A stretch of 64,000 bases of DNA, taken from IMG/VR virus record IMGVR_UViG_3300042261_001186, positions 1 to 64,000 of that record. One strand, given 5' to 3'. This DNA is from a virus. The notes under the pieces were generated by a model, which made no database searches, had not been told where the DNA came from, and saw only the letters and a list, made by a program, of their open reading frames with translations. Position 1 is the first letter of the stretch. The number at the start of each line of letters is the position of its first letter. Shown one piece after another: positions 3,305 to 60,099 of this stretch. The translations under genes were made by a program, and so were the position numbers.

Positions 3305-3667
3305 ATGATTAGAAATTATCTTAAATTTATGAATGAAGCAAATGATATAGAAGATGATGATTCTGTATTAGATGGTTCAGAACCAGATTCTTTTTATACT
3401 GATTGGGGTAAATGGAGAGATGGTAAAGGTTTTGAAAAAACAAATCCTAATGAATTTCTCTATCATTCAATAGAAGATGATTATTATGATGGTGTTATGA
3501 AAGATGGTTTAATAGGTAAAATATATTTAACAGAAACTCCACAAGAATCTGCTCAACATCATCCAATTGTTTTGAAAATTAATGTAAAAGGATTAAGATT
3601 AAGAAAAGATGGTAATCATTGGACATTTTATGGTAAAATACCAGTTTCAAAATTAGAAGAGATATAA
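3305..3667 (+). CDS. Second ART/Tpt1-like protein with capsid targeting leader
   Basis: Protein of 120 residues and paralogue of the protein at 2486-2941. The leader MIRNYLKFMNEA predicts a cut after FMNE. An acidic linker with WGKWRDG follows, then the domain: FLYHSIEDD, DGLIGKIYLTE, IVLKINVKGL and a terminal IPVSKLEEI. The histidine of the H-x-[ST] motif and the GL-xx-IYLT block are kept relative to the paralogue, although T is replaced by S. It is first in a tight operon with the barrel protein and the radical SAM enzyme. Function as an ADP-ribosyltransferase or 2'-phosphotransferase-like enzyme is inferred from pattern only. Confidence 0.65.
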   Translation: MIRNYLKFMNEANDIEDDDSVLDGSEPDSFYTDWGKWRDGKGFEKTNPNEFLYHSIEDDYYDGVMKDGLIGKIYLTETPQESAQHHPIVLKINVKGLRLRKDGNHWTFYGKIPVSKLEEI

Positions 3668-5685: not shown

Positions 5686-6936
5686 TTATTCATCCCAATC
5701 TTCTTCACCTAAAGGATCATTTTCAGAAAATATTTGTTTTGGTTCATATATTTCTAAATCATTTGGGTCACAATATTGTGACATAAAAAACATAGACCCT
5801 GGTGGTTTAATTCTTATAAATATTGGAAATTTAAATGTAGGTTCTATTCTTTGTATTTTCCCAATATGTCTTGATTCTTTGTGTCTAACAACATCACCAA
5901 CTTTAAAATCCTTTATTTCTAAAGATTCATTAGTATCATCCCAATCTTCTTCACCTAATGGATCTATTTCTGATATTCTTGGTTTTGGGATGGTTACTCT
6001 ACCAGTAACATACATATTAACAACATCATCAACATCCAATATGAATATATTTTCTCTGTCATTAACAAAATATACATTACCATTAATTATTTCATAATGT
6101 AGCAAAAAAATATCAAAGTATTTATCTTCTTTGAATTTACGCCAAGAATTACCTATCCTTACTTGTCTTGTTGTGAAAAAAACATTTTTTCTTGTTATTA
6201 TTATTCTATCTAAATATTTTTTTATTTTATTGAGTAAAATGTTACGATCTGCAATTTTAAGTAATTCATCAATATCAACCATATTTTCTGTTTTAGTCAA
6301 ATATTCATTCAATGGTTCTTTAATAGGTTTAAATCCTTTATCATTGAAATAGTTTCCAAAATTAGGATCTTTGATGTCTACTTCACCTTCATATCTTCTT
6401 TTTCTGAAAATATTGAAATTTTTATTAAAGATATTGAAATTCAATTCATTAAGGTGTTCAATTGTCCAATCTTCTTCACCCAATGGGTCTATGTCTTTCA
6501 TTTGGTTTCTGAGTTGAGCTTCTCTATTTTTATAATCCTCTATTTCATCCTTATCATATATTTTCACAGAATAGTCATCTTCATTGAATTTTGCCATATA
6601 TATGCCAGTTCCAGATTTGTTGAATTCATCTATCATTTTTTTTATCCTACTTGTCACACCTATTCTAGCATTTTCACCCCAATTAGGAAGATAGATTCCA
6701 TATTCATCATAAGGCTCCCATCCTTCAGGTCTGAATCCAGCTTCACTTTTCAAGAAAATTTTATCACCATCTATTTTGACACTTAAATCATTGAATTCTC
6801 TGATACCTCCCCAAGTAGGATTACTGAATCTGTATCTATTAACAAATCTTTTGAACATCTCTATTTTAGATAGATTTGTCAAAGGATCTGGGATTTCTTC
6901 TTTTTTTCTTTTAAATTCCTCGAAAACTTTTATCAT
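5686..6936 (-). CDS. Multi-module protein with three DPLGEEDW tags
   Basis: Protein of 416 residues from the ATG at 6936 (the in-frame TTG before it is less likely). The N-terminus MIKVFEEFKRKKEE is a weak version of the capsid leader. The tag DPLGEEDW occurs three times: mid-protein, before a second barrel module, and at the extreme C-terminus (DPLGEEDWDE, stop). After the second tag comes VGDVVRHKESRHIGKIQRI, an SH3/KOW-like barrel. The layout suggests successive fusion of genes that each ended in the tag. Function is unknown; internal virion protein is my best inference. Confidence 0.65.
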   Translation of the reverse strand: MIKVFEEFKRKKEEIPDPLTNLSKIEMFKRFVNRYRFSNPTWGGIREFNDLSVKIDGDKIFLKSEAGFRPEGWEPYDEYGIYLPNWGENARIGVTSRIKKMIDEFNKSGTGIYMAKFNEDDYSVKIYDKDEIEDYKNREAQLRNQMKDIDPLGEEDWTIEHLNELNFNIFNKNFNIFRKRRYEGEVDIKDPNFGNYFNDKGFKPIKEPLNEYLTKTENMVDIDELLKIADRNILLNKIKKYLDRIIITRKNVFFTTRQVRIGNSWRKFKEDKYFDIFLLHYEIINGNVYFVNDRENIFILDVDDVVNMYVTGRVTIPKPRISEIDPLGEEDWDDTNESLEIKDFKVGDVVRHKESRHIGKIQRIEPTFKFPIFIRIKPPGSMFFMSQYCDPNDLEIYEPKQIFSENDPLGEEDWDE

Positions 6937-7565: not shown

Positions 7566-7590
7566 AAGGAGAATTTATTCTCCTTTTTTC
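7566..7590. terminator. Bidirectional hairpin terminator
   Basis: The stem AAGGAGAA/TTCTCCTT has a TTTA loop, with A-run and T-run flanks. It sits between the convergent genes ending at 7559 and 7575 and overlaps the last codons of the latter. Confidence 0.8.
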
Positions 7591-8366
7591 TTTATGGGTT
7601 TCTTTTCACTATTTATAAACCACCAATTATCTCTATATGGATCTTCTGCTTTTTTTGGTTTAGGTCTGAGTTTGAATCTACCTTCTTCATTGAATACAAC
7701 ATTATGTATACCTGTTCTACCACCTACACGTTCAACACTACCATCTTGCTTATAGACAGGTCTACCACCAATTTGTTCTATTTCATCATATTCACTCCAA
7801 AATTGTGAAGTATCAAAATAGAATGGTTTAAATCCTTCAATTGTTTTATATTCTTGATAAATGAATTCTTTATCTATCAAAACATCTCTAAATTCATTTT
7901 TACTAAGTTCTGGAATTATATATCCTATTCCTTTACATAATTTGCAATTCCAAGTGTGTTTTTCTTTCTTCTGAGTTGGGTTGTTGCATTTTTTTCTTTT
8001 CCTTTCCTTTCCAAATATCTCTTTCAAGTAAACATATTCATATTTGTCAGCATCTTTATCTTCAGGTGAGAATACTAAATTTCCTTGATTTGGTAACCAG
8101 TATGAGTTTGCGTCCTTGTCTGTTTTTGTAGGATATTCTGCAAGATTGAATTGACAACCATTACCATTAGGATTTCTCTTGTCAAATTTTATACAATATG
8201 TGTATCCATAATATAAAGTCCTATTGAAAATCTCACCTGACCATATCGCACCACCATACATCCTTACAAAGACTTTATCACCTATGTCGTATTTTATGTC
8301 TTTATATGCATCATCTTCTACCTTTTTGATTGAAGCCTCATTTAAGAATTCTTGAAATTTTTTCAT
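7575..8366 (-). CDS. Internal-protein candidate, WWFxNS family (copy 1)
   Basis: Protein of 263 residues. The leader MKKFQEFLNEAS matches the T4-type capsid targeting sequence, with a predicted cut after FLNE. A barrel domain follows (YDIGDKVFVRM ... SGEIFNRT). A cysteine-containing knuckle has NPTQKK, HTWNCKLCKG (C..CxxC) in the middle, and the C-terminal tag is DNWWFINSEKKPIKK. It is closely related to the next gene upstream (8363-9079) and more distantly to 9076-9903 and 9913-10308. The four genes overlap or nearly touch (ATGA overlaps at 8363 and 9076), so they form one operon produced by duplication. Confidence 0.7.
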   Translation of the reverse strand: MKKFQEFLNEASIKKVEDDAYKDIKYDIGDKVFVRMYGGAIWSGEIFNRTLYYGYTYCIKFDKRNPNGNGCQFNLAEYPTKTDKDANSYWLPNQGNLVFSPEDKDADKYEYVYLKEIFGKERKRKKCNNPTQKKEKHTWNCKLCKGIGYIIPELSKNEFRDVLIDKEFIYQEYKTIEGFKPFYFDTSQFWSEYDEIEQIGGRPVYKQDGSVERVGGRTGIHNVVFNEEGRFKLRPKPKKAEDPYRDNWWFINSEKKPIKKKGE

Positions 8367-9079
8367 TTTTTTATCGGTTTTTTCTCACTATTTATGAACC
8401 ACCAATTTTCATCTCCTGGATCATCTTCTTTTTTTTCTTTTGTTCTAACTAATAATCTTCCATTAGATTTCCAAGTTCTAACATCACTAAAATCAAGTGT
8501 AAACCAATAATTATCAACATTGAACCAAACTGGTTTATCATTGAAATAATTTTCATAAGATTCTTGGTATTTTATTTCCTTATCTTTTAAAGGTTCTCTT
8601 ATTAGTCTAAATATTTCATCATAACCTCTCATACCTGATCCTTTACAATATCTACAATTCCAAGTATGATGTGCTTTTTTTTGAGTAGGATTATCACATT
8701 TTCTTACATATTTATCAAAATATTCTTTAAGATAAATAATAGACTCACTTTTAGATTTACCATCATCTATATCTAAAACATTATTTTCATCAGTCCAATA
8801 TGCTCTTCTATCAGGATCAGATTTTTTAGGAAATTCAGAATTATAATATTCACCAGAACCTGCGCCATAATAAAAAGGTTTATCTTTTTCAACATAAACT
8901 TTTATACAATACATCATATTATGTGGTTCAACAGCTCTATTGAAAATCTCTCCTTTGAAAGTATTTAAATCTCTTCTTACTCTAAATAAAACCTTATCCC
9001 CTATATTATACTTAAAATCTTTATATTTATCTTCTTTTGGGATATTTCCTTCAAAGATAAATTCATTGTATTTCTTCAT
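8363..9079 (-). CDS. Internal-protein candidate, WWFxNS family (copy 2)
   Basis: Protein of 238 residues with leader MKKYNEFIFEGN (cut predicted after FIFE). The barrel is YNIGDKVLFRV ... KGEIFNRA. The knuckle NPTQKK, HTWNCRYCKG is the same as in copy 1, and the C-terminus is ENWWFINSEKKPIKK. The TGA stop overlaps the ATG of the 7575-8366 gene by 4 bases, so translation is likely coupled. The conserved Cys pair suggests zinc binding, possibly with the earlier Cys before NPTQ. Function is unknown. Confidence 0.7.
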   Translation of the reverse strand: MKKYNEFIFEGNIPKEDKYKDFKYNIGDKVLFRVRRDLNTFKGEIFNRAVEPHNMMYCIKVYVEKDKPFYYGAGSGEYYNSEFPKKSDPDRRAYWTDENNVLDIDDGKSKSESIIYLKEYFDKYVRKCDNPTQKKAHHTWNCRYCKGSGMRGYDEIFRLIREPLKDKEIKYQESYENYFNDKPVWFNVDNYWFTLDFSDVRTWKSNGRLLVRTKEKKEDDPGDENWWFINSEKKPIKK

Positions 9080-9903
9080 TTCTTAACAGGTTTTTTTTCA
9101 CTATTGGTAAACCACCAATTTGCATCACTTGGATCTAAAGGTTTTGATTCTGGTTTTGGTGGTTTTGGTTTGGCTTTATAGAGTTTTAATCTATCTGTCC
9201 AATAAACTACTTCCAAATCACCAGATATTGAAATACCTTCATTGCGATCTACATAATTTTCGCTTTCTGAATCATCTTCCCAGTAAAAATCATCAAATTC
9301 ATATCTTGTTCTTACGATATCTTTAAACATATCTGATTTCATAGTACCAACCAGGGCGAGGGCAGTGTTATTACTTTGGACTGTAAATTCTTTACCTTTA
9401 AGAAGTTCTTTCAATTCCAAAAGAACTCGATCTACATAAACATTTCCACCTTTTGATTTGTGTTTTTTTACTATTTCACTCAAATAAATGTAATTATCTT
9501 CTTCTTTTTTTTCTTCAGGTTTCTTGTCTGTTTTTTTAACTTTCTTTGTTTCAACTTTACCAGTACTTGAGATATGAAATTCTTTTCTACCTTTTTCATC
9601 TTCCCAATCTTCTTCATCCTCTTGTAACCTCAAATTCCAAGCAGGAAACCACCAATCATTTACCAAATACAACCTTCCATTATAAGGACCATATTTTTTG
9701 AGTCCTTTGGCCCCCATATTGGTTAGTACTTCACCAATTTGTTTTGTACTACTAATATTGTCAACGACACCAACTTCATCATCATATTCATAATCATCTA
9801 CCATACCAGATACTATTACTCTATCTCCAACTTTGAAGACTGGTCTGAGTTTTTTTTCTGTTATTTCTGCTTCATTTAAAAAGGATGAAAAATTATATAC
9901 CAT
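9076..9903 (-). CDS. Internal-protein candidate, WWFxNS family (copy 3)
   Basis: Protein of 275 residues. The leader MVYNFSSFLNEAE predicts a cut after FLNE. A barrel (FKVGDRVIVSGM ... GVVDNI) comes first, followed by an acidic segment EDEEDWEDE, a charged linker, a second domain and the C-terminal tag ANWWFTNSEKKPVKK. The Cys knuckle of copies 1 and 2 is absent. The stop overlaps the start of 8363-9079. Divergence from the other copies shows that the family is old within the genome. Confidence 0.7.
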   Translation of the reverse strand: MVYNFSSFLNEAEITEKKLRPVFKVGDRVIVSGMVDDYEYDDEVGVVDNISSTKQIGEVLTNMGAKGLKKYGPYNGRLYLVNDWWFPAWNLRLQEDEEDWEDEKGRKEFHISSTGKVETKKVKKTDKKPEEKKEEDNYIYLSEIVKKHKSKGGNVYVDRVLLELKELLKGKEFTVQSNNTALALVGTMKSDMFKDIVRTRYEFDDFYWEDDSESENYVDRNEGISISGDLEVVYWTDRLKLYKAKPKPPKPESKPLDPSDANWWFTNSEKKPVKK

Positions 9904-10409: not shown

Positions 10410-10760
10410 TTAATTTGTATCCAAAATTCTCTAAATCTTTTCTGTGTTTTTGTCTCTGTTGTCATCTGGTAATATCATATCAAAATTAACATAAACCCAA
10501 TTAAACATTCTATTGTTTCCAGCAGGTATTGCTACAACTGTTCCACTACCATATAAAAAATCAAAAACTCTATCACCAACTTCAGGGGTTTCACCATAGT
10601 CTATTCTCTATATTCTGGCTGGTCTTTGGATAACTACACCTTCTGCTCTCCTGTTTGGTCCCCTACCCCTTTGTAATACTATATTTTCATCCCATACTTC
10701 TTCATCATATGGATCTATGTCACTATGAACATTTTCAAATTTTTTGAATTTTTTTATCAT
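10410..10760 (-). pseudogene. Leader-bearing barrel gene interrupted by two in-frame TAG codons
   Basis: Reading from the ATG at 10760 gives the leader MIKKFKKFENVH, the tag DIDPYDEEVWDEN, and 50 residues before a TAG (10608-10610). The same frame then continues as RIDYGETPEVGDRVFDFLYG, a barrel like those of the neighbours, for 58 codons. A second TAG (10431-10433) and six further codons lead to TAA. No ATG follows the first TAG closely, so the downstream part is not a separate gene. Both TAGs have the context AT-TAG-AGA-AT. It is either a decayed gene or one read by amber suppression; other genes here show no sign of TAG as a sense codon. Without suppression, the product is a 50-residue peptide. 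Confidence 0.65.
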
Positions 10761-10761
10761 A

Positions 10762-11250
10762 TTAACCATTCCAATTTTCTTCACCTAAAGGATCTATTCT
10801 ATTGAAAACATTGGTGTCATTGGTTTTGGCCCATTCAGCATAACCTTTTAAGAAATCTATCAAGTCTTGCATTTTATCTAATGTTTCCTTTGAATAAGTA
10901 TCTATCTCTAAATATCTCATAACATCTTCATCTTCAAGATATCCTATGATTTTTGGATCTAATCCATAAAAAGCCAAGTCTTCAAAAGATAATTCTGCAT
11001 CAGTTGATTTGATATATTTCAAATGTGCTAATTCCCTTGCCAAATCAGATAATTTATTATAACCAGATTTATTAACAAAAGTTTGTTTAACTGCTCTTAG
11101 ATTACCTCTAACAAATATATCTTCTATGATCGAAACTATAGTTAAAACACCATTGAGGAATTTATTTTTACCTATTTTTCTCATTATACCAACAATTCTT
11201 CTTGTCATTGGGTTTTTAGCTTCATTGAATTTTTCAAATTTTGTTAACAT
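10762..11250 (-). CDS. Internal-protein candidate with leader and C-terminal DPLGEENW tag
   Basis: Protein of 162 residues. The leader MLTKFEKFNEAK predicts a cut after FNE. A helical body follows with a hydrophobic stretch FLNGVLTIVSIIEDIFV near residues 32-48, possibly amphipathic or membrane-interacting, and a further helical domain. The protein ends in RIDPLGEENWNG, the recurrent tag at the extreme C-terminus. The stop is 1 base before the ATG of the interrupted gene. Family and function are not recognised. Confidence 0.7.
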   Translation of the reverse strand: MLTKFEKFNEAKNPMTRRIVGIMRKIGKNKFLNGVLTIVSIIEDIFVRGNLRAVKQTFVNKSGYNKLSDLARELAHLKYIKSTDAELSFEDLAFYGLDPKIIGYLEDEDVMRYLEIDTYSKETLDKMQDLIDFLKGYAEWAKTNDTNVFNRIDPLGEENWNG

Positions 11251-11266
11251 ATTAAATTATTATTTT

Positions 11267-11629
11267 TTATTTCCATTCGACATCATTGTCATAGTCTTCA
11301 TAATCCATATAATCGTCATACGGGAATTTACCATAACTTGTTCCAAAAAATTTATTTATGGTATCATATTCTTCTTTTGTTATATTCTTAACACCTATAG
11401 AGTCCAAAACTTCTTGACCATTTTCAAATTCAATGTCTTCATTTGATCCAAAACCAAAACTATATTGACCTTGATGTTGTTGAAATTTTTTCTGGAAAAT
11501 ATTCCATTCAGCATCTGTCATTATGCTAAATCCTTCAACATCAAATTCATCAGCATAATCAGCACTGAAATCCAGCAATACATAGCCGGATTCAGTGCCT
11601 TCATTCAAGAAACTTAAAATACTTTTCAT
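11267..11629 (-). CDS. Small acidic internal-protein candidate
   Basis: Protein of 120 residues with leader MKSILSFLNEGT, predicted cut after FLNE. The body is acidic and rich in Phe, Tyr and Asp. The C-terminus is a run of Asp and Tyr (DDYMDYEDYDNDVEW) that resembles the acidic-plus-Trp tags of the neighbours. It starts 1 base after the stop of gltX, so it should be on the gltX transcript. No known fold could be recognised. Confidence 0.65.
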   Translation of the reverse strand: MKSILSFLNEGTESGYVLLDFSADYADEFDVEGFSIMTDAEWNIFQKKFQQHQGQYSFGFGSNEDIEFENGQEVLDSIGVKNITKEEYDTINKFFGTSYGKFPYDDYMDYEDYDNDVEWK

Positions 11630-11630
11630 A

Positions 11631-13226
11631 TTATTTTTTCTTCATTTTTATCTTATAATTGGTCATACGATCTAATGTACCTTCTTTACCTATAATTTCC
11701 ATTATATCAAATAATGAAGGACCATTACCCATACCTGTTAAAACCAATCTCAAAGCTGGAGCAACAGCACCAAAACTCTTACCACTAGCATTTACATAAC
11801 CTTCAAAAGCTTTTTGTATATCTTCTGAAATCCAATTATTAACACCTGCAAATATATCTTTCAAAGCAGCAACAATTTCAATACTTTCTTGATTCCATTT
11901 CTTCTCAACAGTTTTCTTATCATATTCTGTAGGTGGTTCAAATAAATATAATGAAGCATCATAAATATCTTTTACAAAATTTACTTTACCTTTATTCATA
12001 TCAACCATCTTTGCAATAGTTCTATCTGGAAGATTAATTCCTCTTTCTTTTAACATTGGTTTCAATTGATCAACTATTTGTTCACTTGGTATTTGTCTCA
12101 AGTATTGACCATTGTACCATTTAGCTTTATCAATATTGAATTTAGCACCAGCTTTACCACATCTTTCTAAAGAGAAAGATTGTGCTAATTCATCCATAGA
12201 CATAATTTCTTGTTCAGTACCTGGATTCCATCCGAGGAATGCCAAGAAATTAACAAATGCTTCTGGTAAATAACCTGAATCTTTATAACCACTTGAACTC
12301 TTTTCTGGAGTTTTAGGATCAGTCCATTTCAAAGGAAATACTGGGAATCCCATTTCATCACCATTTCTTTTTGACAATTTACCTTGTCCACCTGGGTTAA
12401 GTAAGAGTGCCAAGTGAGCAAATTCTGGAGCATCCCAGCCAAATGATTCATATAAATATATGTGAAGTGGAGCACTTGGAAGCCATTCTTCACCTCTAAT
12501 TACATGACTTGTTCTCATTAAATGGTCATCAACTATGTTAGCCAAGTGATAGGTTGGAAGACCATCTGACTTAAATAGAACCTTATCATCAAGTGTATTT
12601 GTGTTTGCTACAACTGGTCCTCTGATGATATCATTAACGGTTATTTGATAATCGGCTGGAAATTTTACCCTAACGACATAAGGGACTTTCTTAGCCATAA
12701 GTTCTTGAACTTCATCTTCTGAAAGAGTTAAAGAATTTTTCATTTTCATTCTTGTACTATGATCATATTGTGGTGATTGAACACCAGCTTGAAGTAAGTC
12801 AGATTTCATTTTTTCAATATCATCAGGTGTGTCAAAACAATAATATGCATGACCATTATCAATAAGTTGTTTAGCATACTTAGGATAAATATCATATCTT
12901 TCACTTTGACGATAAGGACCATAAGGACCACCTAACCAAGGGGCTTCTTCTGGTGATATACCACACCAATCCAATGATTTTCTGATATATTCTTCAGCAC
13001 CTGGAACAAATCTTTGTTGATCAGTATCTTCAATACGGAGATAGAATACTCCACCATGTTTCTTAGCAAAAAGATAATTGTATAGGGCAGTTCGCACCCC
13101 GCCAATATGGAGCGGACCCGTCGGGCTTGGAGCAAATCTGGTACGTACTTCCCCACTGACACTTTCTTTCATAAGACTGATAAATTTATCAAATTCTGTT
13201 ATGTTTTTCAAATTAAAATTTTTCAT
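11631..13226 (-). CDS. gltX: Glutamyl-tRNA synthetase with capsid-targeting-like N-terminal leader
   Basis: Full-length class I GluRS of 531 residues. The HIGH-type motif PLHIGG is near residue 38, the RIEDTDQQR and WLPSAPLH blocks are intact, and the KMSKS-type motif KLSKR is at 283-287. The anticodon-binding domain follows to the end. Unlike bacterial GluRS, which starts a few residues before RFAPSPTG, this one has about 25 extra residues (MKNFNLKNITEFDKF...LMKES) resembling the phage leader. A cut after MKE would leave a normal N-terminus. A host-type promoter (13266-13275) and a late-type box (13247-13257) precede the ATG at 13226, supporting the long start. GC is locally higher, suggesting bacterial origin. 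An intact GluRS is rare in phages. Confidence 0.95.
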   Translation of the reverse strand: MKNFNLKNITEFDKFISLMKESVSGEVRTRFAPSPTGPLHIGGVRTALYNYLFAKKHGGVFYLRIEDTDQQRFVPGAEEYIRKSLDWCGISPEEAPWLGGPYGPYRQSERYDIYPKYAKQLIDNGHAYYCFDTPDDIEKMKSDLLQAGVQSPQYDHSTRMKMKNSLTLSEDEVQELMAKKVPYVVRVKFPADYQITVNDIIRGPVVANTNTLDDKVLFKSDGLPTYHLANIVDDHLMRTSHVIRGEEWLPSAPLHIYLYESFGWDAPEFAHLALLLNPGGQGKLSKRNGDEMGFPVFPLKWTDPKTPEKSSSGYKDSGYLPEAFVNFLAFLGWNPGTEQEIMSMDELAQSFSLERCGKAGAKFNIDKAKWYNGQYLRQIPSEQIVDQLKPMLKERGINLPDRTIAKMVDMNKGKVNFVKDIYDASLYLFEPPTEYDKKTVEKKWNQESIEIVAALKDIFAGVNNWISEDIQKAFEGYVNASGKSFGAVAPALRLVLTGMGNGPSLFDIMEIIGKEGTLDRMTNYKIKMKKK

Positions 13227-13323: not shown

Positions 13324-14040
13324 TTAATTTTTATCTGATGGCATATCTTTCTCATCTCTACAATCTTCACACCATCCCCTAATTAGGTCATCTGGTCTGT
13401 TGAATTGTCCACAATGTATACATCTACAATCTTCTCTACAGAAATTACAAATACCATTTGTCATCAAAATGTTAGGTGTGTAAGCACCACACATTCTACA
13501 TTCACTTCCTCTCATTTCCATCCTATCAAAATAATTGTCATCATCATAATAAGGATTCCATATATTTTCTTCTTCATTCCAATTTTCTTCACCATAAGGA
13601 TCAAGTTCTGTACTTTCAAATCTGTAACCCCATTCTTCTTCATCATATGGGTCTATGTCTGGATTCATGAGTTTTATTATTTTTTTACCATTTGAAACAT
13701 AAACTTTTAGGTCTTCTCCAGGATTACCACCATATCTACCAAGATATCTTATACCTTTGTCATCTGTTATAACTATTTGACTATCATCATTGACTTTTAC
13801 ATCTTTTATTATACAACTTACTCTTTTCTCATAATTCTGGTCCAAGGCACAAGGAAAACTCACTAATTTTCCAATCATCAATTCTTTCAATTTGTTTTCA
13901 AAATCTATAAAAATACCATAAGGATAATATTCACCATTACGAATAGTTTTTTGAAATTCTTTAGATAAACCAGAAAAAGTAAATGGTTGTATATCTAAAT
14001 CTAAATTTTCTTTTATGTATTTTTTGAATTTTTTAATCAT
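13324..14040 (-). CDS. Leader-bearing barrel and zinc-ribbon protein
   Basis: Protein of 238 residues. The leader MIKKFKKYIKENL predicts a cut after YIKE. A barrel-like middle (GKLVSFPCAL ... GIRYLGRYGG) is followed by two copies of the tag (DIDPYDEEEWG and ELDPYGEENWNE). The C-terminus is a Cys-rich module with CRMC, CNFC, CRC, CIHC, CEDC pairs spaced as in tandem zinc ribbons or a RING-like fold. The TGA at its start side overlaps the next gene (14037). Zinc binding is likely; target and role are unknown. Confidence 0.7.
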   Translation of the reverse strand: MIKKFKKYIKENLDLDIQPFTFSGLSKEFQKTIRNGEYYPYGIFIDFENKLKELMIGKLVSFPCALDQNYEKRVSCIIKDVKVNDDSQIVITDDKGIRYLGRYGGNPGEDLKVYVSNGKKIIKLMNPDIDPYDEEEWGYRFESTELDPYGEENWNEEENIWNPYYDDDNYFDRMEMRGSECRMCGAYTPNILMTNGICNFCREDCRCIHCGQFNRPDDLIRGWCEDCRDEKDMPSDKN

Positions 14041-42746: not shown

Positions 42747-44159
42747 ATGATAACTAAATATTCAAAATATTTAAAACAAAACGAAGCTGATGATAATTCA
42801 GACTTTGATTATTTTGATGATTATGAGGAAACTAAACCTACATTGCCTAAAAAATCATCTCCAACTAAGAAAAATCTTTGGAATTTCAAAGGATTCATGG
42901 AACCTGAAGATCCAGATCAATTAGAACTTGATCTTGGTATAGAAAACCCTAGGAAGATAAAAGCTGCTGAGCTCAAAAAAATGGTTGATGATAAGGCTAA
43001 AAAAGAAAAAGAAGTTAGACAACCTACACATGTAGATACTGGAGATTATGTTGAAGTAGTGGATTTTGAAGATTTAAAAGAAGATCAATTAGAATTTTTA
43101 AAATCCGCACCTAATTTCTATGTTAGAGATATAGTTAATAGTAAAAGTTATCCATATGAAGTAGGAGAACCTTATGTAAACATAGGTTTCAGATCACCTT
43201 TCAAAATGTCTAGATTTAAAGTTATAGATAAATCTCATTGTAAGTACAAAATTTTATTTTTGAATTTTGATTTACCAGTAGATATACATGGTGAAAAAGA
43301 CGTCAATAATTTCTTCAGGGATTCAAAAACTATGTCTGAATTATTCAACAAACTTTTTGCAGAGAAAGAAGATGACATATTGGTTAGTTTTAATATGTAT
43401 GATGACATATATAGAATAAAATATGATTATTATATTAATGGTATATGTTTAAAAGATTATGATTTTGTATTTTTTGGACTCATATCTAATTTTACTTCAA
43501 TAGCAAAAATGCTCATAGATTATTTACAAAAACAGAAAATACCTTTCTTAAAATATGGTACTTTCAAAGAATATGATAACAAAGCCTTTGAATTACATTT
43601 ACTTGATTCTCTTGGATATCCATACATACCATCTATAATGGTTACGAAATTAACTAAAAAGATAATAGATATTGTTCAAAATGATTTTGAATTCCCTGTT
43701 ATAGTTAAGGATGTAAATACTAATAGAGGTGAAGGAGTATACAAAATAGATGATATGGAAGGGTTGTTGAAGACTTTCAGACGTAATAGTAGATTAATGT
43801 TAATACAAAAACATATACCTAATGATGGAGATTTTAGGGTTATAACAATTAAGAGAAAAGTAGAATTAGTTATAAAGAAGAAAAGGATAAGTAAAACTGA
43901 ATTCAGGGCTAATGTTGCTAGAGGTGGAAAGGCTATAAAAGGATCATTACCTCCACATATTCTTAAAATGTGTGAAGATATTTCTAAACATTTGGATAGT
44001 GATATTATTGGTTTTGATATAATACAAGATATGACTAATGGTGAATATTATGTAATGGAAACCAATGCTGGTCCACATTTTCCAACATTTTCTGTTATAT
44101 CTGGTGTGAATATACCAGAAATCATAGTTAATTATATAATGAGATTAATAGAAAAATAG
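42747..44159 (+). CDS. ATP-grasp ligase with capsid targeting leader
   Basis: Protein of 470 residues. The leader MITKYSKYLKQNEADD predicts a cut after QNE; acidic and proline-rich stretches follow to about residue 110. The C-terminal 200 residues are an ATP-grasp domain of RimK/glutathione synthetase type: FPVIVKDVNTNRGEGV, the QKHIPNDGDFRV strand, and IIGFDIIQD ... YYVMETNAGP with metal-binding Glu and Asn. Such ligases form amide bonds from carboxyl-phosphates, for example adding Glu to proteins. It starts the 42.7-49.2 kb operon. It ends in a TAG, one of very few; TGA occurs four codons later, overlapping the next ATG. Confidence 0.8.
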   Translation: MITKYSKYLKQNEADDNSDFDYFDDYEETKPTLPKKSSPTKKNLWNFKGFMEPEDPDQLELDLGIENPRKIKAAELKKMVDDKAKKEKEVRQPTHVDTGDYVEVVDFEDLKEDQLEFLKSAPNFYVRDIVNSKSYPYEVGEPYVNIGFRSPFKMSRFKVIDKSHCKYKILFLNFDLPVDIHGEKDVNNFFRDSKTMSELFNKLFAEKEDDILVSFNMYDDIYRIKYDYYINGICLKDYDFVFFGLISNFTSIAKMLIDYLQKQKIPFLKYGTFKEYDNKAFELHLLDSLGYPYIPSIMVTKLTKKIIDIVQNDFEFPVIVKDVNTNRGEGVYKIDDMEGLLKTFRRNSRLMLIQKHIPNDGDFRVITIKRKVELVIKKKRISKTEFRANVARGGKAIKGSLPPHILKMCEDISKHLDSDIIGFDIIQDMTNGEYYVMETNAGPHFPTFSVISGVNIPEIIVNYIMRLIEK

Positions 44160-45914: not shown

Positions 45915-47384
45915 ATGGATTTGTTATTGAGAGATAGGAATAAAATCACAAATATAGTAGATGTATTAAGGAAAAACAAGCCTGAAGGTGGTGCAAATTT
46001 TTTTGATAGAGTTGATGAATTTGTGAGAGACCCTAAAAATGTTGATATGGTATTCAATCTCATAAATAAAATCAAACAAGATTATGGTCAAAATTTTAAT
46101 CTTATAGTCACAGGAAAATTTGGTGATTGGGTTTTTAATCTCATAAAAACCAATAAAATCAATGTAAATGGAGTAGTTATACATGTTAGTGGATCACTTA
46201 GAAGTGCAGCAAAAAATAAAACATTTCAAATAATAGGTGGAAATGAAAATCAAGCATATAATAAAAAATTTATATTATTGGATGATAGTTTTTATTCAGG
46301 TACTACAAAGAAAGAAATAGATAAACATTTAAATAAATATAATTCTAAAATAATAAGTACATATGTTTTCTATGATGGGTCTTTTCAAAAAAGACCAGAT
46401 GTATTCTCTGTTTATAGGCATTGTAATTATAATAAAGAAGATATCTTACCAGTAAAGAAATTACTTAGTATACTTAATGGAATAGATGATGCCAATATAC
46501 CTTATGATTTGTTGGAAAATCAAATAATGATAGGTCAGATAAGAAGTGTTAAGGAATTATTAAGGGAGATACAGATAGTCAGAGGTAAGTTTGGCAAACA
46601 GAATTTAGATATCAAATCTTATGGATATAAAAGGGAATATGAACATAAGAAAATGAAGAAATATGGGGATTTTGTTAACGAGTCAAAAAAAAAATATTTG
46701 ACCTTTGACGATTTAGAATTCAAAAAACACCCACTCGCAGAAGTTTATGATGAAATGGTTGCCATTGGTGGTTTTGATCCATTTGGGGATGAAAGGAAAC
46801 CATTGCAACAGGCAAAAATGAAATTTGAAAATGGTTATGGTGTATCTGTGTTATTGGGAGATTTATTTTATTCTAATGGTGTAGATACTTATGAAATCAT
46901 GTGCTTTGATGATAAAAATAAATTCATAGGGGATCCACTTGGTCATTTGACTAAAGATGAGGTCAATCATGAAATGATGAAATTACAGAGAAGGAAACAT
47001 CCTATTCAAAAATTCACAACAGAAGATCCTTATGGTGAAGAAGATTGGTCAGATGATATATATGAATCTATTATTAATAAAGGTGACTTTGAAATGACTA
47101 CAATTCAATTATGGCATAAATATATAAGATTTGGAAGAAAAGAAACTATAGATAGATTTAGGAAAAATGTTCTTGAATTCAAAACAGATAGTAAAGGATT
47201 AAAAGAATATAAAGGAAAGATAATAGGGTTTTATCCTTTACATAATAATAAGACAAGGGAGATAATAATATTATTTGACACTAAAGAATATGGGACTTTG
47301 AAAGTAAATGATAAATATCCTATAATAGTAAAATCTGAAGTGAATGAACATTTGAAAAAATATGAAGATTTTATAAATGATTAA
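45915..47384 (+). CDS. Phosphoribosyltransferase-like protein fused to a leader/tag protein
   Basis: Protein of 489 residues. Residues 1-240 form a type I PRTase-like domain with the PRPP loop FILLDDSFYSGTT (119-131). At residue 247 an internal methionine (ATG at 46653) begins MKKYGDFVNESKKKY, a full leader, followed by a domain with FDPFGDE, the tag DPYGEEDWSDD and another beta domain. The last residues (LKKYEDFIND) again resemble a leader. It therefore looks like two or more genes joined in frame; translation might also begin at 46653. PRTase activity on an unknown base is inferred. Confidence 0.7.
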   Translation: MDLLLRDRNKITNIVDVLRKNKPEGGANFFDRVDEFVRDPKNVDMVFNLINKIKQDYGQNFNLIVTGKFGDWVFNLIKTNKINVNGVVIHVSGSLRSAAKNKTFQIIGGNENQAYNKKFILLDDSFYSGTTKKEIDKHLNKYNSKIISTYVFYDGSFQKRPDVFSVYRHCNYNKEDILPVKKLLSILNGIDDANIPYDLLENQIMIGQIRSVKELLREIQIVRGKFGKQNLDIKSYGYKREYEHKKMKKYGDFVNESKKKYLTFDDLEFKKHPLAEVYDEMVAIGGFDPFGDERKPLQQAKMKFENGYGVSVLLGDLFYSNGVDTYEIMCFDDKNKFIGDPLGHLTKDEVNHEMMKLQRRKHPIQKFTTEDPYGEEDWSDDIYESIINKGDFEMTTIQLWHKYIRFGRKETIDRFRKNVLEFKTDSKGLKEYKGKIIGFYPLHNNKTREIIILFDTKEYGTLKVNDKYPIIVKSEVNEHLKKYEDFIND

Positions 47385-48102
47385 AAATTTCCAATCATAT
47401 AATGAAAGTGTAGTTCCAAATTCAGTTGTATTCAATATTAGGGATTATTGTACAACTTATGATAATATTCATAAGTTGAATTATAGAAATGTTGAAACAG
47501 GTGATGTTTTTAGGATATTTGATTTGTTCAAAGGGACTTTTGGTTTGTTTATAAATGATAATGATTTTAGAATATTTCAAGAAAATGATACAGAATTTAG
47601 ACTTTTTGATACAAAAAAAGGGAAACATCTTGAATTATGGCCAAATATGGGCTGGAAAAATACTTGGATTAATCAGACAAATAAAAATGATAAAGATAAT
47701 AAAAAATGGCTTGATAAATATAGAATAGGTAGAGAAGATAAAAAGAAAGTAATAATTCCTATTGAAGGTTATATAACAACATATGATGTAAATAGATTTT
47801 TAACTGATATAAGAACAGAACTTAAATATGGGTATAGAACTTTGATTGGTTATATTAAGCAAGGATATCGAGAAGAACAACTTATTGGAGTAAGACAACC
47901 TAGATATATAACAATTCAAGAAAATAATGGTTATGAAGGAAGAAATACTAATTTCAATGTAGTTTATATAGATATGTCCAATGGTAGTGACCCCTATGGG
48001 ACTAGGGGAATATTAAATATTGCTAAACCTGTTAAATTAAAACAGACTTTAAGAAAATTCACTGAAATAGATCCATTAGGAGAGGAAGATTGGGATGATT
48101 AA
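47377..48102 (+). CDS. Leader-bearing protein with C-terminal DPLGEEDW tag
   Basis: Protein of 241 residues. The leader MIKNFQSYNESV predicts a cut after YNE. A barrel-like first domain (NVETGDVFRIFD) and a second alpha/beta part follow; the end is EIDPLGEEDWDD. Start and stop overlap both neighbours: GATGATTAA is read as Asp-Asp-stop here and as Met-Ile-Lys in the next gene. Unrecognised. Confidence 0.7.
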   Translation: MIKNFQSYNESVVPNSVVFNIRDYCTTYDNIHKLNYRNVETGDVFRIFDLFKGTFGLFINDNDFRIFQENDTEFRLFDTKKGKHLELWPNMGWKNTWINQTNKNDKDNKKWLDKYRIGREDKKKVIIPIEGYITTYDVNRFLTDIRTELKYGYRTLIGYIKQGYREEQLIGVRQPRYITIQENNGYEGRNTNFNVVYIDMSNGSDPYGTRGILNIAKPVKLKQTLRKFTEIDPLGEEDWDD

Positions 48103-53831: not shown

Positions 53832-55631
53832 TTAGATTAATACACCATGAGAATCTGTAACCTCAATAGCCATGAATTGTTTTTCTGGGAAGAAACCAAT
53901 ATCAGCTACTGCATATCTTGAACGGATAAGCATTCTTGGTGCCCATGTTGCTTCAGAAATCAATGAAATTGATTGTGCCATCAAATAAGGGATAAATAGA
54001 AGACCTGGTTGGTCAACACTATTTTTCCTACCTAAATAGATGTAGTTATCATCCCATCTCATATAAGGATCAACATAGATTGAAATTGCGCCTACATTAC
54101 CCATTGGGTAAAGTTGACCATTGGTACTCAATTTACCAGCATTAACTGGGTTGATTGTGTAACCAGCGATATCTTGAATAACAGATGCTAAGTTACCATT
54201 TGTTACCATGTATTGTGCTGGTCCAATTCTACCATCAGTTGCGATAAAGTTAGAAGCGTTATTGATTTTGGCAATAAGTTTTCTCTGGATTGAGTGAGTT
54301 GTTTCACCCATTGCTCCACCGTTTGCTGTTGTTGACAAAGCATCGATGTAGGTATCAACATTAAGGTCAAATTTTGAAATCAAACCTGTTGCGTCTTTAG
54401 GAGCCGTGTAAGAAACTCTGTTCTTCATAGCCAAAGTTCTGATTTTACCAACAATTTCCTTAGAAATTACTTGGGTCAATTCATTAATTAAAACACCTTC
54501 AAGTTTCTGAACAATGTCCATACCTGTTGCTGCTTTAATATCTTCAATTTGGGTTCTCTTCAATGTTGAAGAAATTTCAACATCACCAACTTGAATTGCC
54601 TTTGTGAAGACATCTGGACCAATTACACCAGGATAAGTTTTTTCATCTTGGTATCTTGTCATTCCACCACCTGGAGCTGTTGTATTTCCCCAACCATCTT
54701 CCATATTAGAAACCCAACCTGCTGAGAATCCAGGAATATGATCTTCAAGTAATGAAATCAATTCAACACCCCAGTTACCTGATGTAGTACCTGTTGTTGC
54801 ACCAGTCAAACATGTAAAACCACTAGCTGATAAATAAGCTGTGATAGAACCTGATTGTGGGAATGTGTTTAACATTTGATCCCAAGCTGAACCATCTTGT
54901 GGTGTCATTGAACCAACAGTGAAACCAGCTTGACGATAACATCTAAACATTGGGTAACCATCAACTCTTGAGAAACCTAAGAATTCTAACCAGTTTGCAT
55001 AACCTGCACCTGTTGTTGAAGATGGACCTGCACCTGAGAATAATGTGGTTGAAATACCACCTGCACCTAAGTGAACCCATGCTCTTTTTGATAAACCACC
55101 AACTCTTTCTTGAATATCCAAGATTACGAGTTCTGCTTGAATAGCTGCTTTTAAATTAGCATCTTCAGTTGTTGAACCAGTTGATTTTACTTTAAAAACC
55201 AATGGTCTTTGTTTAGGATCAGCATCACCGTGGAAATCACCACCACCTTGGTTGTAAGCATTGTCATATTTAAAATCTACAAACAATAATTCAATTCTTG
55301 GAGAAGCGGTTGGCTTTACAGCAACCAAATCCAAACCAATTGTTTGAGCTGCAATCTTCATTGCAACTGGGAGTAAATTCTGTGCAACGTCACCACTACC
55401 CATTGTGCCACCCCCTTGCCAAGTTGAACCTGGAATTGTGGAGATAACTGGAGCTTGTACATAACCAGCACCATTGCCATTCAATGTTGCATAACCAACA
55501 TTTTCATTCATTTGATGCATTTCTGCATACTCGGACATCCATGCTCTTTTTTCATCATCTTGAACTCTGAGAGCGTCAAGAATTGGAGCCCATTTTTTTA
55601 CTGCTTTCGCACTATCTACTATAAAATTCAT
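53832..55631 (-). CDS. 23: Major capsid protein (gp23-like)
   Basis: Protein of 599 residues, near the T4 gp23 length. The late segment has the gp23-like order ISIYVDPYM, YLGRK, GLLFIPYL and a final MLIRSRYAV (T4: VDPY, GYKG, LFYCPY, KTRY). The N-terminus is helical and charged, and MNE at residues 41-43 is a good prohead protease site, which would remove a delta domain of about 43 residues. T4 gp23 is cut after Glu65. It is last in the head module and followed by a terminator. Confidence 0.85.
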   Translation of the reverse strand: MNFIVDSAKAVKKWAPILDALRVQDDEKRAWMSEYAEMHQMNENVGYATLNGNGAGYVQAPVISTIPGSTWQGGGTMGSGDVAQNLLPVAMKIAAQTIGLDLVAVKPTASPRIELLFVDFKYDNAYNQGGGDFHGDADPKQRPLVFKVKSTGSTTEDANLKAAIQAELVILDIQERVGGLSKRAWVHLGAGGISTTLFSGAGPSSTTGAGYANWLEFLGFSRVDGYPMFRCYRQAGFTVGSMTPQDGSAWDQMLNTFPQSGSITAYLSASGFTCLTGATTGTTSGNWGVELISLLEDHIPGFSAGWVSNMEDGWGNTTAPGGGMTRYQDEKTYPGVIGPDVFTKAIQVGDVEISSTLKRTQIEDIKAATGMDIVQKLEGVLINELTQVISKEIVGKIRTLAMKNRVSYTAPKDATGLISKFDLNVDTYIDALSTTANGGAMGETTHSIQRKLIAKINNASNFIATDGRIGPAQYMVTNGNLASVIQDIAGYTINPVNAGKLSTNGQLYPMGNVGAISIYVDPYMRWDDNYIYLGRKNSVDQPGLLFIPYLMAQSISLISEATWAPRMLIRSRYAVADIGFFPEKQFMAIEVTDSHGVLI

Positions 55632-55709: not shown

Positions 55710-58181
55710 TTATCTTTGATTTAATCTTTTCAAATATGCATCTACTTGAGAATCACTGAGTTTTGTGTTATCAAATCCGCTATAGCTTTCTTTTAGCAGA
55801 GTAACCTTACCCATATTTTTCTTAGCATATTCATGGAGGTTTCTGGAATTCCAGAAGCTTTCCATTTTGTCCTCAGTCAGGTTAGTATAAAATTGTGCAC
55901 TGCTTATAACACTACCTTGAACTTCTGGTTTTAAACTTTCCCAAATCGGTCTGAGATCGCTGGGGATATTGTCAATTAAGATTTCATTAAAGCTTCTGTT
56001 TTGAACAGTCAACGCTCTAGACATAATTTTCAAAACTTCATTTTCTGATGTGTAATACTTGCTTTCGTTCATTGCAGCTACTACTTTTTCTTTATCTTGT
56101 GGAGAAAGACTATAGAATGCAGTCTTTTTCTTTTCTGACAAGAAACTTAAAAAATGTGGGTCTTTATCATCTGAGGCTTCTCTTTTTTTAGTCTCATTGA
56201 TTTGCTTCAATATCATCCTCTTTAATGCGTTTTTAGATTCAAAAATCCTGTTACCAATTGGTGACAATCTTGATTCTTGAATTTCTTGTACTTCACCAGT
56301 ATCTGACAATTTTACAACTGCAATACCATTATCAGTATTCATAGCTAAAATTTCACCAGTCTTGTCATCATCAATTTTAACAACTTGACCTGGAGTCAAT
56401 TCTACACCATCAATATCATCTTCAATTTCTTCAGCGTTTACGCCATCAACATCAAAATCATCTAAATCATCTTGACCTTGTGCCTGACCTTGTCCTTGAA
56501 CTTGACCCTGACCTCGGATTGGTTGAGCTTGACCTTGACCTTGAATTTGTCCTTGTCCTTGGACTTGACCCTGACCTTGTGGTTGAATCAATCCTTGACC
56601 TTGAACTTGACCTTGGCCTTGTCCCATTTGTGCTTGTCCTTGTGAATCTTCATCATAATATTTAGATACATTATTTGTTTTGAAATCTCCCATTCTTTGT
56701 TCAGGTGATTCAATTGTTTCTCTGAGCATACCTAAACCTTTTGAGTTTAATTTTTCAGAAATGTATCTACCATATTCTATGTTTTTATCCAATGCTTCTG
56801 CGATGTAATTTTCATAAGCAATTGAATCTGTTAAATTTTCTGCGATATATTCAGCATATTTAATGCTATTATCTAATTGTTCACCAATGTATTCTGAATA
56901 TTTAATACTATTGTCAACATGTTCAGCAACATATTCTGAGTATTTGATATTATTATCAACATGTTCAGCAACATATTCTGCATAAGCAATGTTCTTTTCT
57001 ACATTTTCAGCAATGTATTCTGAATAAGCAATATTCTTATCAAGATTTTCAGCTACATATTGTGAATAATCAATTGATTTGTCTACATTTTCAGCAATGT
57101 ATTCTGAATATTTGATAGTATGATCAACGTTTTCAGCAATATATTCTGAAAAATCTATGGATTTATCCAATGTTTCAGCAATGTAATTTTGATAATCAAT
57201 TGATTTATCAACTGATTCAGCTACATATTCTGAATAACCAATGGCTTTTTCCAAGCTTTCAGCCAAATAATCATTGTATTGAATAAGTTTGTCTGTTTTG
57301 CTTTGAAGTTTTTCTTCTAATTTTTCGTTGGTTTTTTTGATTGTTTTGTTTTCTTGAACTAATACCTGCATTGTTTCTGCAAGATAATCAAGATAAGAGG
57401 TTATTTTCTTAAAGCCCTCATTGAAGGATTCGTACTTCTCGTATAAATTATTAAGTTTTTTAGGATCAAAATTACCACTCTTTACGGTTTGACTAATTTC
57501 TCTTTTTGTTTTGGTAATTTCTTCTGTTAAATAATTTGAGTACCTTTCCATTTGTTCTTTTGTTATAAATTCATTTTTATCCATATTAAACAAATCGTTT
57601 ATTTTTGACTCATCGGATATTTCGAATATCCTAAAGTTAGCACTCTCATTGAATCCCAAAGATTCATTTAAAGTGCGAATTTCCATCTTTGCTGAGCTAA
57701 ATCCAGGATCAGCAACAGCATCATAAGTAAATAATTTTTTAATGGTAACATGACCATTAGATTCAGTTACACCAGCAGCTCTAGATGATACAAAAATTGG
57801 AAATCCATCATCGACCAAAGCTTGAGCTTCTTTACCCCAATGAGTATTTAACAATCTTATTTCTCCATCAACCCTATTCTTTTCCTTAACAAAAAAAGCC
57901 TTCTCAACAACGTGTGACACTCTTGAGAGGCTTGTATCGAAAACATCTGGGTGATCGAATTCACCATAAACAACTCCTAATGTTTTTTTTCTTTCTAGTA
58001 ACTCATCCAAATGAGGCAAAAAACCAGCTGAATCATAAATTCGCTCATTGCGATTCTTAACACCAAATTCTGTAAATACACCGCCCAAGAGTATATTCTT
58101 CTTTCCATTATTGGCATTAACAGATTCATTTAATTTTTGTAACCCACTGGTAGAATTTTCAATGATTAAAACATTCTTCAT
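55710..58181 (-). CDS. 21: Prohead protease fused to scaffold (gp21+gp22-like)
   Basis: Protein of 823 residues. Residues 25-175 are a T4 gp21-type serine protease (S77): EFDHPD (His77), FVSSRAAG (Ser132/133) and DAVADPG (Asp near 158). Residues 302-483 are thirteen 14-residue helical repeats of form Y-S-E-Y-[IV]-A-E-N-[VL]-D-K-x-I-x. Each contains [ILV]-[AGS]-E, the T4 prohead protease cleavage pattern. A Gln-Gly-rich linker (about 505-570) and a C-terminal helical domain follow. In T4 the protease and scaffold are separate genes. The start MKNVLIIEN is close to a possible cut at KLNE|S. The core would be assembled and then digested. Confidence 0.85.
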   Translation of the reverse strand: MKNVLIIENSTSGLQKLNESVNANNGKKNILLGGVFTEFGVKNRNERIYDSAGFLPHLDELLERKKTLGVVYGEFDHPDVFDTSLSRVSHVVEKAFFVKEKNRVDGEIRLLNTHWGKEAQALVDDGFPIFVSSRAAGVTESNGHVTIKKLFTYDAVADPGFSSAKMEIRTLNESLGFNESANFRIFEISDESKINDLFNMDKNEFITKEQMERYSNYLTEEITKTKREISQTVKSGNFDPKKLNNLYEKYESFNEGFKKITSYLDYLAETMQVLVQENKTIKKTNEKLEEKLQSKTDKLIQYNDYLAESLEKAIGYSEYVAESVDKSIDYQNYIAETLDKSIDFSEYIAENVDHTIKYSEYIAENVDKSIDYSQYVAENLDKNIAYSEYIAENVEKNIAYAEYVAEHVDNNIKYSEYVAEHVDNSIKYSEYIGEQLDNSIKYAEYIAENLTDSIAYENYIAEALDKNIEYGRYISEKLNSKGLGMLRETIESPEQRMGDFKTNNVSKYYDEDSQGQAQMGQGQGQVQGQGLIQPQGQGQVQGQGQIQGQGQAQPIRGQGQVQGQGQAQGQDDLDDFDVDGVNAEEIEDDIDGVELTPGQVVKIDDDKTGEILAMNTDNGIAVVKLSDTGEVQEIQESRLSPIGNRIFESKNALKRMILKQINETKKREASDDKDPHFLSFLSEKKKTAFYSLSPQDKEKVVAAMNESKYYTSENEVLKIMSRALTVQNRSFNEILIDNIPSDLRPIWESLKPEVQGSVISSAQFYTNLTEDKMESFWNSRNLHEYAKKNMGKVTLLKESYSGFDNTKLSDSQVDAYLKRLNQR
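56465..56650 (-). repeat. Gln-Gly-rich low-complexity linker
   Basis: Encodes repeats of GQGQ and VQGQ/IQGQ. It separates the scaffold repeats from the C-terminal domain. Confidence 0.7.
56733..57278 (-). repeat. Thirteen 42-base scaffold repeats
   Basis: Each unit encodes 14 residues with a Y-[ILV]-[AGS]-E core. The period of two heptads fits a coiled coil. All thirteen keep the potential cleavage Glu. Confidence 0.85.
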
Positions 58182-58281: not shown

Positions 58282-60099
58282 TTAAAATGTTGGGGCTTGA
58301 CCACCTCCTTGACCACCTTGTGGTGGTGCAGCACCTTGACCTCCTTGAGCTGGGGCTTGAGCACCTCCTTGAGCACCGCCCATTTGAGCACCACCACCCA
58401 TTTGAGCACCACCACCCATTTGAGCACCACCACCAAATTCTCCACCACCCATCTGAGCACCGCCACCGCCGAAGTCACCTCCACCGAAACCACCACCGCC
58501 GAAGTCACCTCCACCACCTGGCATTCCACCCATTTCACCACCTTCTGGACCAGCAGCATTACCTGCCCTCTTACGTTCAAGCATTTTATATTTGTTATTC
58601 TCTTCAATATCAGCATCACTGAATTTCATAATATGTCTGATAATCCATTCATTACTTAAATATGGTTTACCTTCAGGATCTTGAATTGAAGAACTTAATG
58701 TCTGTGCAATTTGAGCTCTCTCACTCAAATTCTTTAAATGTCTCCATTCTTCAAATAAAGTATCAGAAATAAAATCTAATCTTATTGCATCATTAAAATC
58801 AACATCATCTTTCAATTCTGGAAAATCTAAAATCATTTGAATTTTCAAAGGTTTCAAAATAATTTCTTTGAAAATAGTTCTTATTCTATTAATATAATTT
58901 TTAAATTTTACTTCATCTCTAGTAACAGCAGCATTTGAATCATAAGCATAAGTACCACCACCATTATCTTCATCAAATCTTTGGAATGGTAATTTACTAG
59001 CTCTTTTTAAAATTTTATAAAACCATTGAAGAACAATATCTTCATTCAAATTCACTTGGTTAGGTTGTAATATTTCAATTGATGGTGTACCACCATTACC
59101 TTCTGGGAACCAGAAATCTTTACTAAATGGAATATTTGTACTACCATTAATAGAAACGGTACCCATCCTATCATCCCATTGAACATCATCATGATATTCA
59201 CTCATCAATTCATAAATTTGTTGTTCAGCTTGTTGTCTAGATAAACCACCTACTGGTATAACAAATTTCTTGTAAATGGAAGCTTGATTAATATTATAAA
59301 GTAATCTAGCTTGTTCAATCATTTTTAATTGATTGTAAGGTCTGATCAAATTTTCAACATAAGATGTTTCTCCATATTCATTATTATTAGAATATGAAAT
59401 ATAAATAATCTGTGAATCTAATAATATTTTTCTCATCTGAGGATTATCTGGATGTTGAATCCAAATCATAGTATTAGTATTAGGATCAGTTGCAACAATT
59501 AAAGTAATTGGATCAAGAGGGGCTAAATCAATAATATTTTTTTGTTTGTCATCATAAATTATTTCATATGCAATATATCCATCAATTAAAAGATTTTTTA
59601 AATATTGCCATGCAATTTGACCTTCATTAAAATTAAATGTGTTTATGAGTTTTGTAAAATTTTCTTGATATTTTTGTCTTATTGTTTGTTCATAATTATC
59701 TGGTATATCTTTTACATAACAAAATCTATTATTGTCATCATATATAATACATTCATCTGCAATTTGTGTGATAAAATCTTTTATTTCATCTTTAATGGAA
59801 TATTGTCTTAATATTTTTCTTTTATCAAGATATGTTCTATCTAAATAAGCGATTGATTTTTTATCTAAAAATCTAGCAATAGTTTTTTTAGTAAATAAGT
59901 CATACATATTTGAACTATTAGGTTGATAAAGAACATCTGTTGTTTCTTCATGTACACCCATAGCATAAGCATTTCTAATTCTCATATCATTGTATTCCAA
60001 CCCACCAAACATTGTGGATAAACTTCGTAATATTTTGTTGAACAAACCAAAATTTGTGTTGTTAGTTTGGTTTCCTCCATATCTATTATATGATGCCAT
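58282..60099 (-). CDS. 20: Portal protein (gp20-like) with glycine-rich tail
   Basis: Protein of 605 residues. The T4-type portal blocks are clear: YLDKRKILRQYSIKDEI, LLIDGYIAYEIIYD, LDPITLIVATD, KLPFQRFDEDNGG, and a late KFSDADIEEN. The last about 85 residues are a low-complexity tail (GGGDFGGG, AQMGGG repeats, ending in QAPTF) that is unusual for gp20. The N-terminal half has a truncated paralogue at 810-1826. The portal forms the DNA entry vertex on which the prohead assembles. Confidence 0.9.
   Translation of the reverse strand: MASYNRYGGNQTNNTNFGLFNKILRSLSTMFGGLEYNDMRIRNAYAMGVHEETTDVLYQPNSSNMYDLFTKKTIARFLDKKSIAYLDRTYLDKRKILRQYSIKDEIKDFITQIADECIIYDDNNRFCYVKDIPDNYEQTIRQKYQENFTKLINTFNFNEGQIAWQYLKNLLIDGYIAYEIIYDDKQKNIIDLAPLDPITLIVATDPNTNTMIWIQHPDNPQMRKILLDSQIIYISYSNNNEYGETSYVENLIRPYNQLKMIEQARLLYNINQASIYKKFVIPVGGLSRQQAEQQIYELMSEYHDDVQWDDRMGTVSINGSTNIPFSKDFWFPEGNGGTPSIEILQPNQVNLNEDIVLQWFYKILKRASKLPFQRFDEDNGGGTYAYDSNAAVTRDEVKFKNYINRIRTIFKEIILKPLKIQMILDFPELKDDVDFNDAIRLDFISDTLFEEWRHLKNLSERAQIAQTLSSSIQDPEGKPYLSNEWIIRHIMKFSDADIEENNKYKMLERKRAGNAAGPEGGEMGGMPGGGGDFGGGGFGGGDFGGGGAQMGGGEFGGGAQMGGGAQMGGGAQMGGAQGGAQAPAQGGQGAAPPQGGQGGGQAPTF

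Follow-up and report, generated by a model that had tools for sequence, protein, structure and literature searches.

A predicted capsid-targeting leader on the glutamyl-tRNA synthetase of a giant phage

A synthetase gene among tagged genes and T4-type head genes

The window analysed here is the first 64,000 positions of a 130,397-base virus record, itself a fragment (IMGVR_UViG_3300042261_001186), in which open reading frames were called with a simple greedy caller that starts each gene at the first ATG. It contains a gene for glutamyl-tRNA synthetase (GluRS), several genes whose products begin with sequences resembling the capsid-targeting tags (CTSs) of phage T4, and a set of T4-type head genes (Table 1; arrows mark predicted cleavage sites). 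GluRS is flanked by CTS-bearing genes both in the window and in its nearest relative among public phage records, the complete 735-kb genome LR756501, with which it shares 75.5% identity in GluRS and 77.9% in the capsid protein. According to the passages of Al-Shayeb et al. (PMC7162821) drawn on here, their 735-kb genome belongs to the Mahaphage clade, whose predicted replication hosts are Bacteroidetes, and the host of the window's giant phage is probably a member of the Bacteroidota.

The tRNA genes of LR756501 cover most amino acids and include three tRNA-Glu and three tRNA-Gln, while no tRNA gene was found in the 64-kb window. LR756501 also encodes two tRNAs with anticodon CTA (L057 10585-10738), labelled Pyl by ARAGORN and possibly amber suppressors. 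Elsewhere in the window's virus record a tmRNA gene is predicted (L003 8133-8530, + strand), with the tag peptide GKNQIL.

Table 1. Features of the window, with strand and supporting details
Feature	Coordinates	Strand	Details
CTS-bearing protein, MKKFQEFLNE↓A	7575..8366	-	T4 IPIII: MKTYQEFIAE↓A
CTS-bearing protein, MKKYNEFIFE↓G	8363..9079	-	
CTS-bearing protein, MVYNFSSFLNE↓A	9076..9903	-	
Short ORF, CTS-like start MVNMIKKFKKFE	10608..10769	-	DPYDEEVW motif
CTS-bearing protein, MLTKFEKFNE↓A	10762..11250	-	
Gene just downstream of GluRS, CTS-like start MKSILSFLNE↓G	11267..11629	-	score 3.9, weaker
GluRS gene, precursor form	11631..13226	-	531 aa, 60.3 kDa; domains, motifs, fold matches
Predicted mature GluRS, Ser22 to end	11634..13163	-	510 aa, 57.7 kDa
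Anticodon-binding domain PF19269	11658..12074	-	residues 385-523
Class I catalytic domain PF00749	12117..13151	-	residues 26-370; HIGG and KLSKR
Predicted capsid-targeting propeptide (MKNFNLKNITEFDKFISLMKE)	13164..13226	-	residues 1-21; aromatic pair F12/F15; processing site M19-K20-E21
CTS-bearing protein directly upstream of GluRS, MIKKFKKYIKE↓N	13324..14040	-	
RimK-like ATP-grasp protein, CTS-like start MITKYSKYLKQNE↓A	42747..44159	+	predicted enzyme cargo
Major capsid protein, gp23 family; predicted cleavage HQMNE↓N	53832..55631	-	PF07068 E=3.5e-26; homologue N-termini
Head maturation protease fused to scaffold, tandem YSEYIAE↓N-type repeats	55710..58181	-	PHROG 207 E=2.5e-28; repeats
Portal protein, gp20 family	58282..60099	-	PF07230 E=7.9e-72

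The window encodes an intact bacterial-type GluRS

The initial annotation had read the synthetase gene as intact, and profile searches agree: matches cover positions 1-314 of 314 in PF00749 and 3-139 of 141 in PF19269, TIGR00464 scores 467 bits (cut-off 290), and the HIGH and KMSKS motifs are kept as HIGG at residue 40 and KLSKR at residue 283. Columns invariant among bacterial GluRS proteins are retained, and the top PDB fold matches are 6brl and 6b1z, at about 50% identity. The ORF is an intact, full-length GluRS of the bacterial type, and from its sequence it is predicted to glutamylate tRNA-Glu.

The annotation had also called an intact GluRS rare in phages. This holds for phages at large, with any GluRS match present in 47 of 50,697 phage records, but it does not hold at the upper end of genome size: of the complete phage genomes of Al-Shayeb et al., the four largest (634-735 kb) each encode one. 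GluRS enzymes of huge phages were already known, and a phage GluRS tree is given in that work (2020; PMC7162821).

A conserved N-terminal leader precedes the enzyme

The window GluRS begins MKNFNLKNITEFDKFISLMKE↓SVSGEVRT-RFAPSPTG, which places 29 residues ahead of the RFAPSPTG motif, and a cut between E21 and S22 would leave eight, the most frequent length in bacteria. Among 79 Bacteroidota GluRS genes, 77 have only 4-9 residues (mostly 7-8) at this position, counted from the nearest ATG. The extra N-terminus ending in LMKE↓S, whose removal was proposed to restore the usual bacterial length, is therefore confirmed as an extension that is not common in bacterial relatives, and the leader was rejected as a feature of bacterial GluRS. 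In an AlphaFold model (mean pLDDT 89), residues 1-24 are of low confidence; within them a helix spans residues 9-20 and a low-confidence stretch residues 20-24; the catalytic domain's first strand covers 28-31. The model fits a removable leader joined to an otherwise ordinary enzyme, with the 20-24 stretch as a hinge at the putative cut site.

Close homologues were compared as a set of five, comprising the window GluRS and four orthologues about 75% identical to it (LR756501, L013, L014 and L015). Invariant in all five are M1, K2, L6, N8, E11, F12, F15 and M19-K20-E21-S22, so that the aromatic pair F12/F15, spaced i,i+3, is fully conserved, and the stretch between F15 and M19 varies (ISL, RLL, VDM, CDM, VGM). 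Retention of Met19 in all five would also be expected if the leader were untranslated and the true start lay at Met19 (MKESVSGEVRTRFAPSPTG); an ordinary cytoplasmic phage GluRS serving late translation would result, with 11 residues ahead of RFAPSPTG, close to the bacterial range. However, L6, N8, E11, F12 and F15, all upstream of Met19, are likewise kept in 5/5 sequences, and in every pair compared variation at third codon positions equals or exceeds that at the first two. In lineages B and C an ATG is missing here, and translation must begin upstream of their FLKE↓S or LNE↓S leaders. With the upstream frame conserved in this way, an annotation artefact was judged unlikely, and we assign the Met19 start a very small probability.

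Other GluRS lineages carry leaders of different wording that end in FLKE↓S, KLNE↓S, TLNE↓N or FLAE↓S: KDYSDFLKE↓S in LR756504, KNYNDFASSKLNE↓S in L016, KNYNDFTLNE↓N in L017 and RFLAE↓S in L198 and L211. A linker of about 25-40 residues follows the site in LR756504 and in L198/L211, and a cut there would not give the exact bacterial length. In a GluRS tree built without LR756501, tagged members fall into two distinct clades, and the tree implies at least four state changes. Untagged GluRS proteins occur in other phages, several of them with gp23-type capsids, indicating that the leader is not a universal trait.

The leader resembles T4 capsid-targeting sequences

T4 IPII and IPIII start MKTYQEFIAE↓A, and T4 IPI starts MKTFKEFTSTTTPVSTITE↓A. 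In IPIII, residues 4 and 7 act in targeting and residues 8 and 10 in processing; cleavage by the gp21 protease follows L/I-x-E (PMC9026906). The window GluRS leader has a non-canonical form, with Met rather than L/I at P3 of its M-K-E↓S site and three extra residues separating the aromatic pair from the cut; the spacing in T4 IPI also differs, showing that this distance can vary in T4 itself. The FLKE↓S and LNE↓S leaders of other lineages fit L/I-x-E in full.

Tags were scored with a gapped CTS profile built from 111 N-termini of the window's contig and LR756501, with GluRS excluded and no T4 sequence included; T4 IPIII scores 9.7. Scores of at least 9, in percentages that count the training members too, were reached by 16% of the proteins of the contig and 6.5% of those of LR756501, compared with 0.1% of shuffled sequences and 0.2% of internal segments. 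A plain CTS pattern, used as an alternative measure of enrichment, was found in 38 of 181 contig proteins, against 3.8-3.9% in controls.

The window GluRS scores 6.8 (p about 0.007), which taken alone is of moderate significance. At a threshold of 6, 46 of 181 contig proteins pass where about 2 are expected; the noise level near this threshold is illustrated by a class II synthetase-like protein at window position 41681, which reaches 6.6 although it lacks a canonical motif, and whose counterpart in LR756501 has a score of 0.8. Tagged GluRS homologues gave p values of 0.006 (LR756501), 0.001 (L016 and L017) and 2e-4 (LR756504, score 12.6), and untagged GluRS gave p>0.4. The GluRS of LR756504, from a diverged lineage, bears a CTS of canonical form. 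The L014 orthologue scores only 1.1, and the tags of lineage D score weakly. With an ungapped matrix the window GluRS scored 8.3 and the homologues from LR756501, G001 and G002 were near or below zero; because spacing and hydrophobic residues differ among homologues, such a matrix misses them, and the gapped profile was used. Across the other synthetases found with four Pfam models in the complete genomes LR756501 and LR756504, no CTS score exceeded 2.8.

Tagged proteins across the genome

Most of the CTS-bearing LR756501 proteins scanned have no Pfam match, exceptions including a polyphosphate kinase 2 and a radical SAM protein. The former (L030 12222-13436) starts MISNYDNFMNE↓S and is possibly an injected enzyme regenerating nucleotides or ATP. 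In the window, two related small proteins (2486-2941 and 3305-3667, + strand) have the CTS-like starts MGVKKYLSFLNE↓E and MIRNYLKFMNE↓A; neither matches Pfam or PHROG, and by eye both resemble proteins of ADP-ribosyltransferase type. A protein that by eye is phosphoribosyltransferase-like (45915-47384, + strand) contains an internal CTS-like KKYGDFVNES and perhaps consists of two fused units.

A second motif, DPxGEExW (e.g. DPYGEENW, DPLGEEDW), recurs in this phage, frequently towards the C-terminus or between modules. Window proteins at 10762-11250, 13324-14040, 5686-6936, 47377-48102 and many more contain it, and GluRS lacks it. In LR756501 it tracks the CTS (31/104 CTS-positive versus 62/910 CTS-negative proteins, p 9e-11), and it is absent from LR756504.

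A tag on so large a share of proteins, mostly of unknown function, could in principle direct them to a destination other than the capsid, such as an intracellular phage compartment or complex. Several observations make this improbable. The likeness to T4 CTSs extends as far as MKKFQEFLNE↓A against MKTYQEFIAE↓A, and the tag ends in the T4 head-protease consensus. A canonical tag is also missing from each nucleotide-metabolism, RNA-repair and structural gene that was recognised and checked in the window. Additionally, the tag reappears within the scaffold portion of the head protease fusion that this phage encodes, where residues about 261-480 contain tandem 14-residue repeats (e.g. YSEYIAENVDKSID) with the motif [FY]xx[FY][IL]xE, as in the CTS. 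LR756501 and LR756504 also encode proteins with such repeats. If T4 gp22 is a guide, the fused protease would cut the scaffold repeats, and their CTS-like YSEYIAE↓N form suggests that the tag mimics the scaffold. The capsid protein's own predicted cut, M-N-E↓N, has Met at P3.

Taken together, we consider it likely that GluRS is made as a precursor with a T4-type CTS, packaged in the head and cleaved after E21. This capsid targeting, with cleavage at LMKE↓S, had been proposed from the gene's N-terminus; the proposal has gained support from the likeness of the tag to T4 IPI, IPII and IPIII, its genome-wide enrichment, the T4-type head and protease genes in the window, its recurrence in other GluRS lineages, and the lack of such a tag on bacterial GluRS and on the other synthetases found in two complete relatives.

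A proposed model for packaging and ejection

During head assembly, the leader would dock on the scaffold core through F12/F15 in its short helix, and the phage head protease would then cut after E21, retaining in the head a GluRS of normal bacterial length. Mature enzyme would be ejected with the DNA and work in the newly infected cell ahead of phage gene expression. Ejection into the host is likely if the protein is packaged: T4 packages and ejects foreign enzymes, e.g. beta-galactosidase, that are fused to the CTS or IPIII, at 20-200 fusion proteins per particle (PMC9026906).

Once injected, GluRS might simply keep Glu-tRNA charged while the host GluRS or host translation is impaired. This is the simplest option, although we regard it as plausible only, with the odds somewhat against it. 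The initial annotation had put forward protected tRNA charging or a non-translational use of Glu-tRNA, both of which are conjectural. In a counter-defence variant, charging would be restored when the host enzyme is shut off at the start of infection; HipA-type kinases inactivate GluRS (PMC8262856). A virion-borne takeover kit of GluRS, the LR756501 polyphosphate kinase 2 and the RimK-like ligase, in which GluRS counters HipA-type kinases or other defences, is a speculative and rather doubtful extension. Alternatively, GluRS could be packaged for a structural or nucleic-acid-binding role in the core, or through passive reuse of the tag, and be functionless after injection, as several T4 internal proteins are dispensable (PMC9026906). 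We think this improbable, as the catalytic and anticodon-domain features and the bacterial invariant columns are all conserved and tags occur on GluRS in two separate clades, observations with which a structural role would nevertheless still be compatible.

If GluRS is packaged as we favour, huge phages would have at least one translation enzyme at work from injection onward, not solely after expression. In T4, CTS targeting serves a few internal proteins, and here it is apparently employed on a large scale by phages that rank among the biggest known. No report of a packaged tRNA synthetase, of capsid targeting in huge phages or of virion proteomics for these uncultivated phages was found in the open-access literature, and a CTS on GluRS, hence a new enzyme class as CTS-directed head cargo, appears unreported. 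The tag also offers a simple sequence rule for predicting the virion contents of uncultivated huge phages.

Comparison with known systems

Bacteroidota GluRS enzymes (PDB 6b1z and 6brl) have the fold and domains of the window GluRS, at about 50-57% identity, but without an N-terminal leader. Mahaphage GluRS proteins, related to those of Bacteroidetes, represent the same gene in the same phage group; the passages of PMC7162821 drawn on here treat synthetases as part of the phage translation repertoire and mention neither an N-terminal tag nor packaging. In phiKZ and SPN3US, compared through the literature and of a lineage different from that of the window phage, many head proteins have propeptides cut after Glu by the prohead protease, and some head proteins are ejected into the host. 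There is a further parallel with T4, whose IPI, IPII, IPIII and Alt carry a short N-terminal propeptide (10-19 residues in the IPs versus 21 in the predicted one of GluRS). An aromatic pair spaced i,i+3 is common to the T4 IPs and the GluRS leader; the IPs have cut sites of the form L/I/M-x-E, and the leader ends in M-K-E. Both T4 and the window phage encode a gp23-type capsid, a gp20-type portal and a head protease. Unlike T4, the window phage has its protease and scaffold fused, bears far more tagged proteins, and counts among its predicted cargo a full aminoacyl-tRNA synthetase.
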